In this document: piece by piece, positions 39,423 through 42,979 of the stretch
Numbering within the stretch: the stretch's first letter is position 1
Layout of the letters: every line of letters starts with the position of its first letter
NCBI GenBank assembly: GCA_902777855.1
Contig: CACYVN010000006.1
Coordinates: 1-64,000, forward strand
Length of the DNA: 64,000 nt
Direction: 5' to 3'
Source of the DNA: an uncultured bacterium
GTDB taxonomy: Bacteria > Cyanobacteriota > Vampirovibrionia > Gastranaerophilales > Gastranaerophilaceae
Made by a program: the position numbers and the translations under genes
Notes under the pieces: generated by a model
The model's database searches: none
The model's input: the letters and a program-made list of their open reading frames with translations, nothing else
Told to the model about the DNA's origin: nothing

Positions 39423-39503
39423 AATAAAAAAGAGGGCTGAAATTCAGTCCTCTCTTATATCTGGGCCGCAGTGGACTCGAACCACCGACCTCACCCTTAT
39501 CAG
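39423..39503 (-). repeat. left 81-bp direct repeat: terminator plus tRNA-Ile 3' end
   Basis: Bases 39462-39503 equal the tRNA-Ile(GAT) 3' half from the anticodon loop to the discriminator; 39423-39461 repeat its downstream terminator. The same 81 bases, with two changes in the hairpin loop, occur at 42867-42947 with the complete tRNA. This is the layout left by tyrosine-integrase insertion at a tRNA anticodon loop. Confidence 0.85.
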
Positions 39504-39663
39504 TGGAAAACCTTGTATTGATTGAGTTTCGGCTATATTGATGTATCTTGAATTCCCGCCTATTTTTTAAAATCAGTCAATACCCATAAAACTCAAGAAA
39601 TATAAACACTACTCCACAAATATTACACAAAACTTTCGGTTTTGTTTATGCTAACCTGTAATT
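39504..39663. other. left end of tRNA-Ile island
   Basis: No gene. It carries CACAAATATTACACAAAA (39615-39632), repeated exactly at 42823-42840 near the right end. Each copy lies about 100 bases from a tRNA 3' fragment, so it may be an integrase arm site or a shared element end. Confidence 0.5.
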
Positions 39664-40158
39664 ATGGAAGAAAAATTAACTAGAAGTCTTGAAACCTATT
39701 TGCTTGCAATAAATTCTTTATTAGAGGAAAAGAAAGCAATTATTGTTAAGGATGTTGCACAGAATCTTAACTTTGGCGGTGCAACAACTGCTGACGCAGT
39801 TAAAAAATTAAAAGAAAAAGGCTATGTCAATTATGAGCCATACGGAAATATTACTTTAACCGATTTGGGTGAAAAAACTGTAATAATAAAAAAATATCGT
39901 CATAATACAATAACAAAATTTTTAAATAGAGTTTTGGACATTGACGAAAAAACTGCCGAATATAATGCAGAGCAAATGGAATATTCGCTTGGGAATGATG
40001 TTCTTACTCGCCTTGTTAATTTTCTTGATTTTATGGAACAGTGTTCCTGTAAAGAGCCTAAATGGGTAAATAGTTGTAAATCAACTCTCGAAACGGGAGA
40101 ATTGAGTGCAAAATGTAAATCTTGTTCGGGCGGTTGCTGTTGTTCAAATAAACAATAA
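39664..40158 (+). CDS. DtxR/MntR-like metal-dependent regulator with Cys tail
   Basis: A 164-residue regulator. Residues 1-60 form a winged helix (RSLETYLLAINSLLEEKKA...VKDVAQNL...TADAVKKLKEKGYV), and residues 70-125 the DtxR dimer/metal domain (RHNTITKFLNRVLDIDE...AEQMEYSLG). The last 40 residues add a CSCKEP...CKSCSGGCCC cluster not seen in standard DtxR, possibly a metal or redox sensor. No feoA/feoB or Mn transporter lies nearby. First gene of the tRNA-Ile island. Confidence 0.8.
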   Translation: MEEKLTRSLETYLLAINSLLEEKKAIIVKDVAQNLNFGGATTADAVKKLKEKGYVNYEPYGNITLTDLGEKTVIIKKYRHNTITKFLNRVLDIDEKTAEYNAEQMEYSLGNDVLTRLVNFLDFMEQCSCKEPKWVNSCKSTLETGELSAKCKSCSGGCCCSNKQ

Positions 40159-40355
40159 AAAGTTATGTCATACCTTAACATATTGTAAATATTAAATATT
40201 ATCCGATTTTCCTATTGACAAATTATTTTTTTTCGTGTTTTATAAAAAATATGAGATATGTAAATTTAAACAATTTAATTTGTTGTTGCTGTAAGTTTTG
40301 TCGAAGAACTTACTTATAATTTTATATGCAATAAATAAATTCAGATAAAAGTATA

Positions 40356-40392
40356 GATAGGTTCTTAAATATGTTTTAAGAACCTATTTTAG
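40356..40392 (+). terminator. hairpin before 40418
   Basis: ATAGGTTCTTAA and TTAAGAACCTAT flank a short loop and are followed by TTTTA. It lies 200 bases after the regulator and 26 bases before the next gene, so it may end the first or attenuate the second. Confidence 0.55.
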
Positions 40393-40417
40393 TATGTAAT
40401 TTTAAGGAATCAAAAAA

Positions 40418-41962
40418 ATGAAAATCAATAACATTAACAATAATATTGAAAATAAAAGCCGAAACAACGTAAGTTTTAAAGGTCAAATGGGTACTTTATC
40501 AAATGCACTCTATACTCTAAGTAATAATGATATGCTTAACGCTTCATTTGTAGATATATTTGCTATGGACACTCCAAGAACAATAGTTGAAACTAAAAAC
40601 AGAGGAAAGCAGGCAGGAATTGAAATGGGGTTTAGAGAATACACAGGAACATTTATTGCAGAATTTTCTGCGGCGGTTTTTGCGGTTCTCGCTTCTAAAT
40701 TTATCTCTAAAAAGCTAAATCCAAACGTGAAAGTAAATTCAGGTTCTTGGATTACAAATAACGGATTGAATGTATTTTCTGATATTTTTAACAAATCAGA
40801 TAAAACACCTCGTGGCTATGTTGAAAATGTACTTAATTCTATATCTGGTGTAGTTGGAAATAAAACAAAAAACCTTGCCAATATTGATAAAACTAACACA
40901 AAACCTGTTATAGAAAGACTAACAAGTTTAATTACTGATAAAACAATAGATAAAAAAGCAAGCAAAAAAAGACTAACAAGTATTCAAGATGAAATAATAA
41001 ACTTGCTTGGGGCAGATAACACTATCACGATTAAATCAGGTAAAAATGTAGTAACATCTAATCTAACACATGCCTTGAGAGATATTGTTGATTCAGGAAG
41101 AAATATTTTCTTTACCGAAACAAAACAAAATTCAGGTGAGATTTTATCTAAACTAAAACGAATGAACAATTTGAGAATAGGAATTGCAATACCTTTATCA
41201 ATGGGACTTGCGATTACTAATCAATATCTAAACCGTTACTTAACCAAAAAAAGAACGGGAATTGATAATTTTGTAGGTGAGAACGGTTATGACAAAAATG
41301 TTGCAGATAAAAATGAAAAGAAATCTGAAAAGGGTTTATGGGCAAAGAAGCTTTTATCAGCGGGGATTTTTGTTTTAATGCTTACACGGGTTATGGGCGT
41401 TAAAAAGCCTATGGATTTGATTAAAAAGTTAGAATTTGACGGTCCTGCAACAAGCGGAAATGCAATTAAAACAATTTATGGAACTCTAATCTTGGGCAGA
41501 ATATTTGCTTCAAAAGATTCTACTGAACTTAGAGAAACAAATGTCAGAGATTACTTAGGGTTCTTGAATTGGCTTGTATTAGGCGGTTTTGTAGCAAAAG
41601 GTGTAGGTCAAGCATTAGACCCGAAACAAGCAAACTTGTTTAATATATCAAAACAAGGTAAAAGCATAGGTCATTGGCTCAAAGATGTATCATTAAAATC
41701 ACAAAAAGAAATAATTGCACAAGGCGGAAATGTTAAAGCTAATTTAAGAAAACTAAATATTGCACAAATGTCAGGAATTGCATATTCTGCTACAATGCTT
41801 GGTGTACTTTTACCTAAATTAAATATCTGGATGACAAGAAAAAAGGGAAATGATAATAATAAAAATATTGTACAAACACAGCAACAAAATGTAACTTTTA
41901 AATCAGGTTTTGTTTCAATGGAAGAATTTGCTAAAAGAACTAATACTAAAGATACAAAATAA
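40418..41962 (+). CDS. NVSFKG-motif membrane-associated protein
   Basis: A 514-residue protein of unknown function. The N-terminus is Asn-rich (MKINNINNNIENKSRNN) followed by VSFKG (about 18-22); a related QNVTFKSG lies near residue 491. Hydrophobic segments occur near residues 75-95, 247-265, 308-330, 345-365 and 380-400, among basic, Lys/Asn-rich regions. Its layout resembles operon gene 2 (6982-8496). AAGGAATC precedes the ATG. It is the main cargo of the tRNA-Ile island. Confidence 0.75.
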   Translation: MKINNINNNIENKSRNNVSFKGQMGTLSNALYTLSNNDMLNASFVDIFAMDTPRTIVETKNRGKQAGIEMGFREYTGTFIAEFSAAVFAVLASKFISKKLNPNVKVNSGSWITNNGLNVFSDIFNKSDKTPRGYVENVLNSISGVVGNKTKNLANIDKTNTKPVIERLTSLITDKTIDKKASKKRLTSIQDEIINLLGADNTITIKSGKNVVTSNLTHALRDIVDSGRNIFFTETKQNSGEILSKLKRMNNLRIGIAIPLSMGLAITNQYLNRYLTKKRTGIDNFVGENGYDKNVADKNEKKSEKGLWAKKLLSAGIFVLMLTRVMGVKKPMDLIKKLEFDGPATSGNAIKTIYGTLILGRIFASKDSTELRETNVRDYLGFLNWLVLGGFVAKGVGQALDPKQANLFNISKQGKSIGHWLKDVSLKSQKEIIAQGGNVKANLRKLNIAQMSGIAYSATMLGVLLPKLNIWMTRKKGNDNNKNIVQTQQQNVTFKSGFVSMEEFAKRTNTKDTK

Positions 41963-41979
41963 AAAATAACAGGTGAAGA

Positions 41980-42603
41980 ATGAAGAAGATTATATGCTAT
42001 GGAGATTCAAATACATTTGGGTTTAACCCAAAAGACAGTTCAAGATTTGATGAAAATACCCGTTGGACTGCAATTTTGCAGAAAAATACAAAAACTGAAT
42101 ATGAGGTTATAAATGAGGGAATGTGTGATAGAACAGGTTTTGTAAATAACCCAAAAGGCTTTGAGTTTTCTTCACAAAGACACTTCCCAAAAATGCTATC
42201 TAAAATTAACAGTATAGATATACTTATACTTGCGATAGGAACAAATGATTTGCAATTTCAGTATGATATAAGTGTTGGTGCAATAGAAAAAGGGTTGGAA
42301 AATCTAATCAAATTGGCACAACCAAAAGCAAAATATATAATCATTATTCCGCCTGTTGTTTTGAGTGAGAAAGTTTTAGAAGGCTTTTTTAATTTTCAAT
42401 TTGACAAAACAAGTATTGTAAAATCAAGAAAAATAGGAAGAATTTACAGGCAAATTTCTAACGCATATCATTGCAATTACTTTGATATAAATAAATTCAC
42501 AAAACCTTCAGATCTTGACGGCTTACATTATGATAAAAAATCACACAAAATCATTGCGGATAAATTAACAGAGTATTGTAAAATGGTAAGGATTATAATT
42601 TAA
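41980..42603 (+). CDS. SGNH/GDSL-family hydrolase
   Basis: A 207-residue esterase-like protein: ICYGDSNTFG (block I with catalytic Ser), AIGTNDLQ (block III Asn) and DLDGLHYD (block V Asp and His). Such enzymes remove acyl groups from sugars, lipids or peptidoglycan. No signal peptide. AGGTGAAG precedes the ATG and the gene is 17 bases after 40418-41962, so they are probably cotranscribed. Last gene of the island. Confidence 0.88.
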   Translation: MKKIICYGDSNTFGFNPKDSSRFDENTRWTAILQKNTKTEYEVINEGMCDRTGFVNNPKGFEFSSQRHFPKMLSKINSIDILILAIGTNDLQFQYDISVGAIEKGLENLIKLAQPKAKYIIIIPPVVLSEKVLEGFFNFQFDKTSIVKSRKIGRIYRQISNAYHCNYFDINKFTKPSDLDGLHYDKKSHKIIADKLTEYCKMVRIII

Positions 42604-42675
42604 CGCACTCCCTTCAATCTGTTATAGTCTTTTTTACGGTTTCCTCTTTTTATATAAACAGAGTAAAATATTAAG

Positions 42676-42726
42676 AGGACTGGCAAGGTTCGAACATGCG
42701 ACCTCATGCGTGACAGATTTAAGACT
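42676..42726 (-). pseudogene. tRNA 3'-end remnant
   Basis: On the minus strand a T-loop (GTTCGAA) with one-mismatch stem, a preceding CTTAAATCTGTC resembling a tRNA-Leu(TAA) anticodon region and a TGCCAGTCC acceptor-like end are visible. No 5' half is present. It may mark a second, older insertion junction. Confidence 0.4.
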
Positions 42727-42866
42727 AATTTGTCCTATCAGAATTCCAATGTTATACTACTCAACTAATAGATATTTATTTATTTTTATTTATCTTTACT
42801 GATGTTAAAAACTATGTCATTACACAAATATTACACAAAATGGTCGGTAAATACTCAAAATTGAGC

Positions 42867-42947
42867 AATAAAAAAGAGGGCTGAAATCTAGTCCTCTCTT
42901 ATATCTGGGCCGCAGTGGACTCGAACCACCGACCTCACCCTTATCAG
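42867..42947 (-). repeat. right 81-bp direct repeat
   Basis: Counterpart of 39423-39503; it includes the terminator (42870-42900) and the 3' part of the intact tRNA-Ile. The DNA between the repeats is 3,363 bases. Confidence 0.85.
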
Positions 42948-42979
42948 GGGTGCGCTCTAACCACCTGAGCTAGCAGCCC
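42906..42979 (-). tRNA. tRNA-Ile(GAT)
   Basis: A complete cloverleaf on the minus strand: acceptor GGGCTGC/GCGGCCC (one G-T pair), D arm GCTC/GAGC, anticodon loop CTGATAA (GAT), T arm with GGTTCGAG, discriminator A. Its 3' half is duplicated at 39462-39503, and a split copy of its 5' half lies at 43049-43129. Confidence 0.96.

Follow-up and report, generated by a model that had tools for sequence, protein, structure and literature searches.

A 3.4-kb island in tRNA-Ile of a Gastranaerophilales bacterium, without an integrase gene and with cargo under a predicted cysteine attenuator

How does a block of three genes come to lie inside a tRNA gene without an integrase beside it, and how is its expression controlled? 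This question is raised by positions 39423-42979 of contig CACYVN010000006.1 (assembly GCA_902777855.1), which belongs to an uncultured bacterium of the Gastranaerophilaceae. We analyzed the first 64,000 nucleotides (nt) of this contig, referred to below as the window. The genome, G000, consists of 1.94 Mb in 31 contigs, and it was compared with its genus in a set of 46 genomes, G000 included. Homologous loci came mostly from rumen or gut and carried the names Candidatus Gastranaerophilales or uncultured bacteria. We consider it likely that the locus is a 3.4-kb tRNA island which lost its integrase or never carried one, and whose cargo is controlled by a trp-type cysteine attenuator. As mobile DNA the island is of an ordinary kind, though unusual in having no integrase, and the attenuator is the more interesting part of it.

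Results

The island interrupts tRNA-Ile

Repeat search of the window detected a direct repeat of 101 nt with 90% identity and a spacing of 3444 bp. Its core of 81 bp, with 2 mismatches between the copies at 39423-39503 and 42867-42947 (both on the minus strand), ran from CTGATAAGG in the anticodon loop, through the 3' end of the tRNA, to the terminator. ARAGORN identified an intact tRNA-Ile(GAT) at the right copy only (42905-42980, minus strand), which scored 63.6 bits against Rfam RF00005. By comparison of the repeats, the right core is the island-borne copy that completes the functional tRNA-Ile (proximal attachment, or att, copy). The left core is the displaced tRNA-Ile 3' half with its terminator (distal att copy), from which the ancestral downstream sequence continues leftward with 34 bp common to the empty sites of relatives. 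A restored tRNA gene and a displaced fragment, as expected of an island, were thus both present and correctly oriented.

An earlier reading of this DNA, made from the sequence alone (the sequence-only reading), had described an 81-bp direct repeat of terminator and tRNA-Ile 3' half broken at the anticodon loop, and repeat search and ARAGORN agreed on it. The three genes that it had placed between the repeats were all there, those for the DtxR and SGNH proteins being confirmed by Pfam. The integrase was missing from the island as it had said: a profile search with PF00589 gave no match there (three were obtained elsewhere in the genome), and none of the open reading frames (ORFs) of the island encoded one.

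The terminators of the two 81-bp copies were alike in 37 of 39 bases, while those of relatives were unrelated. This suggests that the attP came from the same species, or that gene conversion took place.

Beyond the right end, the interval 43040-43148 contains a feature that the earlier reading had not mentioned: a second tRNA-Ile 5' half, 83% identical to that of the intact gene and preceded by a 43-nt palindromic element (AGGCCTCTCGAAAAATGAT-N5-ATCATTTTTCTCGGCAGAG). The same feature occurred at the same place in G002, G004, G008, G016 and G017. The palindromic element is present in several copies per genome across the genus, sometimes in tandem adjacent to tRNA genes (L057, beside tRNA-Leu).

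The site is empty in relatives

The 42-nt tRNA half was detected in 35 of the 46 genomes. It was present in exactly two copies in G000, the only genome with two, and in at most one copy in each of the 45 others, and therefore the repeat is beyond what chance would give. In five single-copy relatives the tRNA-Ile terminator was followed by TATAGGTTTTCAGGACAGTTGTGATGGGAG or a close variant, as is the displaced half here. Since the downstream sequence of these relatives is that which follows the displaced half, the left copy is the original one, and the island occupies the stretch from there to the restored gene. The 34-bp downstream sequence (39382-39415) is a dispersed element, found also at several other places in these genomes, and the argument rests on its position. 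In G014, G019, G053 and G057 the tRNA half lay in or near contig ends, where sites were not callable as empty. The ancestral tRNA-Ile site is empty. This is the situation that the sequence-only reading had proposed to look for, and relatives showed it by the single copy and, in five of them, by the common downstream sequence.

The cargo comes from elsewhere

The cargo block (39645-42583, plus strand) was 92% identical to G004:C38 and to the yak-abomasum contig JAGBOW010000055.1. In both of these genomes the cargo adjoins biotin synthase, with a gene for a cysK-type enzyme in between in G004, and the genes around the G004 locus are mostly missing from G000. We compared fourfold-degenerate sites of G000 and G004 and observed 78.5% identity in the cassette (233/297) against 53.0% in seven flanking host genes (272/513; Fisher p = 3.2e-13). 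Judged by these silent sites, the cargo is horizontally acquired, and a host-like phylogeny of it was ruled out. An island fixed in all relatives with host-like phylogeny had been named earlier as the outcome that would speak against an island; we found an empty site and a cargo much closer to G004 than the genes of the host itself are.

The left breakpoint of the block (39645) falls in the DtxR promoter, between what are likely its -35 and -10 regions, the promoter reading being our own, and the right one (42583) within the 3' end of the SGNH hydrolase gene, because of which the last codons of this gene are unlike those of its relatives. Breakpoints inside a promoter and inside a gene are as expected of a captured fragment. 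Their position suits a capture of the cargo between a pair of att ends better than it suits the mere loss of an integrase gene.

A predicted trp-type attenuator precedes the membrane-protein gene

Upstream of the second cargo gene, which encodes a likely membrane protein, lies a complete trp-type attenuator that the earlier reading had not noticed. Its promoter, TTGACA-N17-TTTTAT (40215-40243, plus strand, as are all parts of the attenuator), is followed by the leader ATG 7 nt past the -10 box, and a leaderless transcript is predicted for the leader ORF. The TTGACA-N17 promoter is conserved, and in most close homologues it is so spaced that transcription is predicted to begin at the leader ATG or close to it. 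The leader peptide MRYVNLNNLICCCCKFCRRTYL is encoded by a 22-codon ORF (40251-40319) with four Cys codons, UGU UGU UGC UGU, at 40281-40292. Hairpin 1:2 (40291-40313) overlaps the fourth of them. The antiterminator pairing 2:3 (40304-40366) joins AAGAACTTA at 40304-40312 with TAGGTTCTT at 40358-40366. The intrinsic terminator hairpin 3:4 (40356-40388), then TTTTAG, is conserved and has an energy of -16.4 kcal/mol (z = -5.5 against shuffles). Pairing of region 2 with region 3 excludes formation of the terminator.

A poly-Cys leader ORF was found at 52 of 74 homologous Gastranaerophilales loci, mostly 75-120 bp upstream, and both hairpins 1:2 and 3:4 were present in 50 of these 52 leaders. Terminators of -9 kcal/mol or lower were observed in all 14 leaders sampled and in 1.8% of shuffles. 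The energy of the 2:3 pairing was -8.6 kcal/mol within a locus and -6.8 kcal/mol between loci; none of 5000 permutations was as strong, in a test that leaves relatedness among loci in place. The two sides also covaried, AGAACTT occurring with AGTTCT and AGGACTT with AGTCCT. Such a change of class on both strands argues for selection on the 2:3 pairing. Outside the Cys run the leader sequence varies among loci.

Within the genus we searched for the leader with an exact pattern, stricter than the full variation of the family. It was found once per genome and only at this gene, except that G004, where the gene is duplicated, had it twice; this search gave no sign of wider use of the attenuator at other genes. 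Rfam gave no match for the leader region. The anatomy, as read from the sequence, is that of an attenuator, and from its likeness to known attenuators we infer a response to cysteine.

Cargo genes

The first cargo gene (39664-40158, plus strand) encodes a regulator of the DtxR/MntR family, with both DtxR domains above the Pfam cut-off (PF01325, E=2e-13; PF02742, E=2e-12). It ends in a Cys-rich tail, CKSCSGGCCC, which is conserved in close homologues; most genomes searched, G000 included, have a second DtxR-type gene, and this one has no such tail. A search for an operator motif gave a suggestive result, one decamer: ACCTTAACAT at 40172-40181 (plus strand) is a possible, weak operator of this regulator, and in L107 and L151 the same decamer stands in front of both DtxR and the leader.

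The second gene (40418-41962, plus strand) encodes a protein of 514 amino acids (aa), here called the NVSFKG protein. It is likely a membrane protein, as suggested by its five moderately hydrophobic helices. Its structure model was moderately confident (pLDDT, predicted local distance difference test, of 79), and neither by sequence nor by fold was a match obtained in Pfam, NCBIfam, PHROGs or PDB. It was not found on viral contigs. The short N-terminal motif N-x-S/N-F-K/G-G, from 40418 on in this gene, recurs in unrelated Gastranaerophilales proteins and may be a sorting or processing signal. Among the neighbours of the membrane-protein gene in other genomes are a cysK-type enzyme dependent on pyridoxal phosphate, biotin synthase, NadA and MnmA. 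These depend on sulfur or iron-sulfur clusters, so that the membrane protein may plausibly serve the supply of sulfur or cysteine; drawn from regulation and neighbours, this role is a guess. The third gene (41980-42603, plus strand) encodes an SGNH/GDSL hydrolase (PF13472, E=2e-13).

Island ends and integrases

Inside both island ends we found the motif TTTTGTGTAATATTTGTG(T/G)A, on the minus strand, at 39612-39632 on the left (TTTTGTGTAATATTTGTGGAG) and at 42820-42840 on the right (TTTTGTGTAATATTTGTGTAA). The earlier reading had not noticed these motifs. Motif comparison suggests that they are arm sites: in G039 and G025 the motif also stands just 3' of tyrosine integrase genes. G019 carries a tRNA-Ile half with the same break point, preceded by several arm-like motifs, and therefore at least one other element used this tRNA-Ile crossover. 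The sequence-only reading had proposed a search of relatives for the same ends with an integrase. This was not found, the G019 contig with the same crossover having no integrase.

In G000 itself the only candidates for a cognate integrase were two Xer-sized recombinases and one integrase adjacent to tRNA-Glu with different repeats. The locus of the latter (G000:C7:310464; L096 9949-11145) encodes a tyrosine integrase of 351-357 aa that adjoins tRNA-Glu(CTC), with GGGTACA repeats between the two, and is probably an intact integrative element. A search of viral contigs for an intact tyrosine-integrase element with these ends gave no match to the arm motif. One phage contig (IMGVR_UViG_3300010163_003592; L197 1-1524) matched the tRNA half, but it carries a large serine recombinase and no tyrosine integrase. 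This contig starts inside tRNA-Ile, and the recombinase ends at its 3' end; by this arrangement tRNA-Ile is apparently also the target of a serine integrase. In G019, too, a degraded fragment of a related recombinase stands beside the tRNA half (L086 645-991).

Near the right end, at 42666-42714 (minus strand), sequence comparison revealed a 3' half resembling that of tRNA-Asp, with its break at the anticodon loop, a diverged relic of another att site that the earlier reading had likewise not noticed. In G009 a similar tRNA-Asp half lies ~38 kb from the tRNA-Asp gene (G009:C1:91954-130053), with an integrase at 128904, next to the gene. Its layout indicates that this interval is probably an integrative element.

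Elsewhere in the window we observed a two-copy tandem repeat of 451 bp with 79% matches (16082-17026). A gene in the left flank (37415-38488) resembles phage baseplate hub and tail lysozyme (phrog_27932, E=5e-21) and is possibly phage-derived or a cell-wall gene.

Discussion

Proposed explanation

We propose that the cargo block was captured between two att ends, and that the tyrosine integrase of another element would then have inserted the 3.4-kb element into tRNA-Ile of this rumen-type bacterium. The gene is split at the anticodon loop; the 3' half brought by the element restores it, and the displaced half lies at the far end. The cargo consists of the DtxR-type regulator gene and, after it, a separately promoted operon of two genes under the predicted cysteine attenuator. 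With sufficient Cys-tRNA the ribosome would clear the leader, hairpins 1:2 and 3:4 would form and transcription would stop before the membrane-protein gene. When Cys-tRNA is scarce, the ribosome would stall on the four Cys codons and region 2 would pair with region 3, leaving no terminator, so that the membrane protein and the SGNH hydrolase would be made under cysteine shortage. The Cys-tailed regulator probably adds a metal or redox input.

Several observations weigh against this explanation. No leader was present at 22 of the 74 homologous loci, mostly a paralogous branch (~40% identity). Neither of the two genes under the attenuator is a known cysteine gene, and the membrane protein has no conserved Cys. 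An integrase which would appear able to use the island ends was not found in this genome. Also, both repeat copies share a terminator that relatives do not have, which suits an attP from the same species, later gene conversion or duplication.

The sequence-only reading had held that the island is either decayed or moved in trans. The missing integrase and the arm-like motifs at both ends agree with that statement, and they do not settle the choice between its two halves. It is quite possible, if short of probable, that an integrase-bearing element entered tRNA-Ile and that deletions later removed its integrase along with other genes. Both att copies and the arm-like motifs are kept while the integrase is gone, other complete integrase genes exist in the genome, and the tRNA-Asp-like relic at the right end suggests turnover; however, the cargo block makes up nearly all of the interior, other sequence covering only ~140 and ~260 bp at the ends, no integrase remnant is recognisable, and the ends of the block are capture-like. 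We regard as a tentative possibility a non-autonomous element mobilised in trans by the integrase of another element. Neither a second copy nor a cognate integrase was found in this genome, and the resident tRNA-Glu integrase is flanked by different repeats, but such an element would account for complete att copies with arm-like motifs at both ends, for the small size with cargo intact, and for the other element end in G019, with the same crossover and motifs. It is improbable that no integrase was involved and that illegitimate recombination duplicated the tRNA half with its terminator as a foreign fragment entered. The shared terminator would fit such an event, yet gene conversion between the repeats can explain it as well, and a break in the anticodon loop is a standard integrase crossover in tRNA genes (Islander, PMC4383910), seen also in G019 together with arm-like motifs.

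As for control of the cargo, we find it very improbable that the poly-Cys ORF has no regulatory role and either arose by chance or encodes a small Cys-rich peptide that binds metal. A peptide of this kind would suit the extra Cys of some leaders (CCCCKSCC), which could bind metal, and the Cys-tailed regulator next door. However, the hairpins overlap the Cys codons, the 2:3 and 3:4 pairings are mutually exclusive with a locus-specific match, the terminators are far better than shuffles within an attenuator anatomy, and the sequence outside the Cys run is variable; a chance ORF was ruled out by conservation and structure.

An integrase-less tRNA island with cargo under a cysteine attenuator remains our preferred explanation. 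A broader version of it, which we consider doubtful, is that the terminator-based attenuator with a leaderless poly-Cys leader is general in Gastranaerophilales, governs a membrane protein without known fold and forms, with the Cys-tailed DtxR, a two-input cysteine/metal switch, travelling from lineage to lineage as a minimal, integrase-less element mobilised in trans. A cysteine attenuator conserved at about 50 loci is directly testable. The cysteine response would give a first functional handle on this membrane protein family of an uncultured gut lineage, for which neither fold nor domain is known, and the island would show that this switchable cargo moves between lineages via tRNA genes.

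Comparison with known systems

Anticodon-loop crossovers are common among the tRNA islands of the Islander database (PMC4383910). The island described here resembles them in its split and restored tRNA, displaced 3' fragment, anticodon-centred crossover and acquired cargo. Islander islands require an internal integrase gene, which is missing here; moreover, the att repeat here extends through the terminator, and the arm-like motifs are putative.

The regulator resembles DtxR/MntR proteins in both DtxR domains, and its closest NCBIfam models are MntR; it scores below the MntR cut-offs and differs in its conserved Cys-rich tail.

Ribosome-mediated attenuation is textbook knowledge for several amino acids. 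The attenuator described here shares with those of trp, his and ilv the regulatory codons in a leader peptide and the 1:2, 2:3 and 3:4 pairings, but its amino acid is apparently cysteine and its targets are not known biosynthesis genes. In the literature searched, with most subscription journals outside the search, we did not find a cysteine attenuator complete with terminator and antiterminator.

For Actinobacteria, poly-Cys leaders have been predicted, with the explicit statement that conserved terminator hairpins were not found (PMC1262725). In mycobacteria, leaderless poly-Cys leaders are cysteine-responsive attenuators (Canestrari et al. 2020, as cited in PMC9031893 and PMC13236596). Like them, the present leader is a small ORF that precedes the controlled gene and contains consecutive Cys codons, and it is predicted to be leaderless too. 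The mycobacterial type controls cysteine biosynthesis genes, whereas the genes controlled here encode a membrane protein of no known class and an SGNH hydrolase, and the alternative hairpins and intrinsic terminator of this locus are absent from the actinobacterial cases (PMC1262725). The host also differs, being a non-photosynthetic relative of cyanobacteria and not a member of the Actinobacteria, from which poly-Cys leaders are known.

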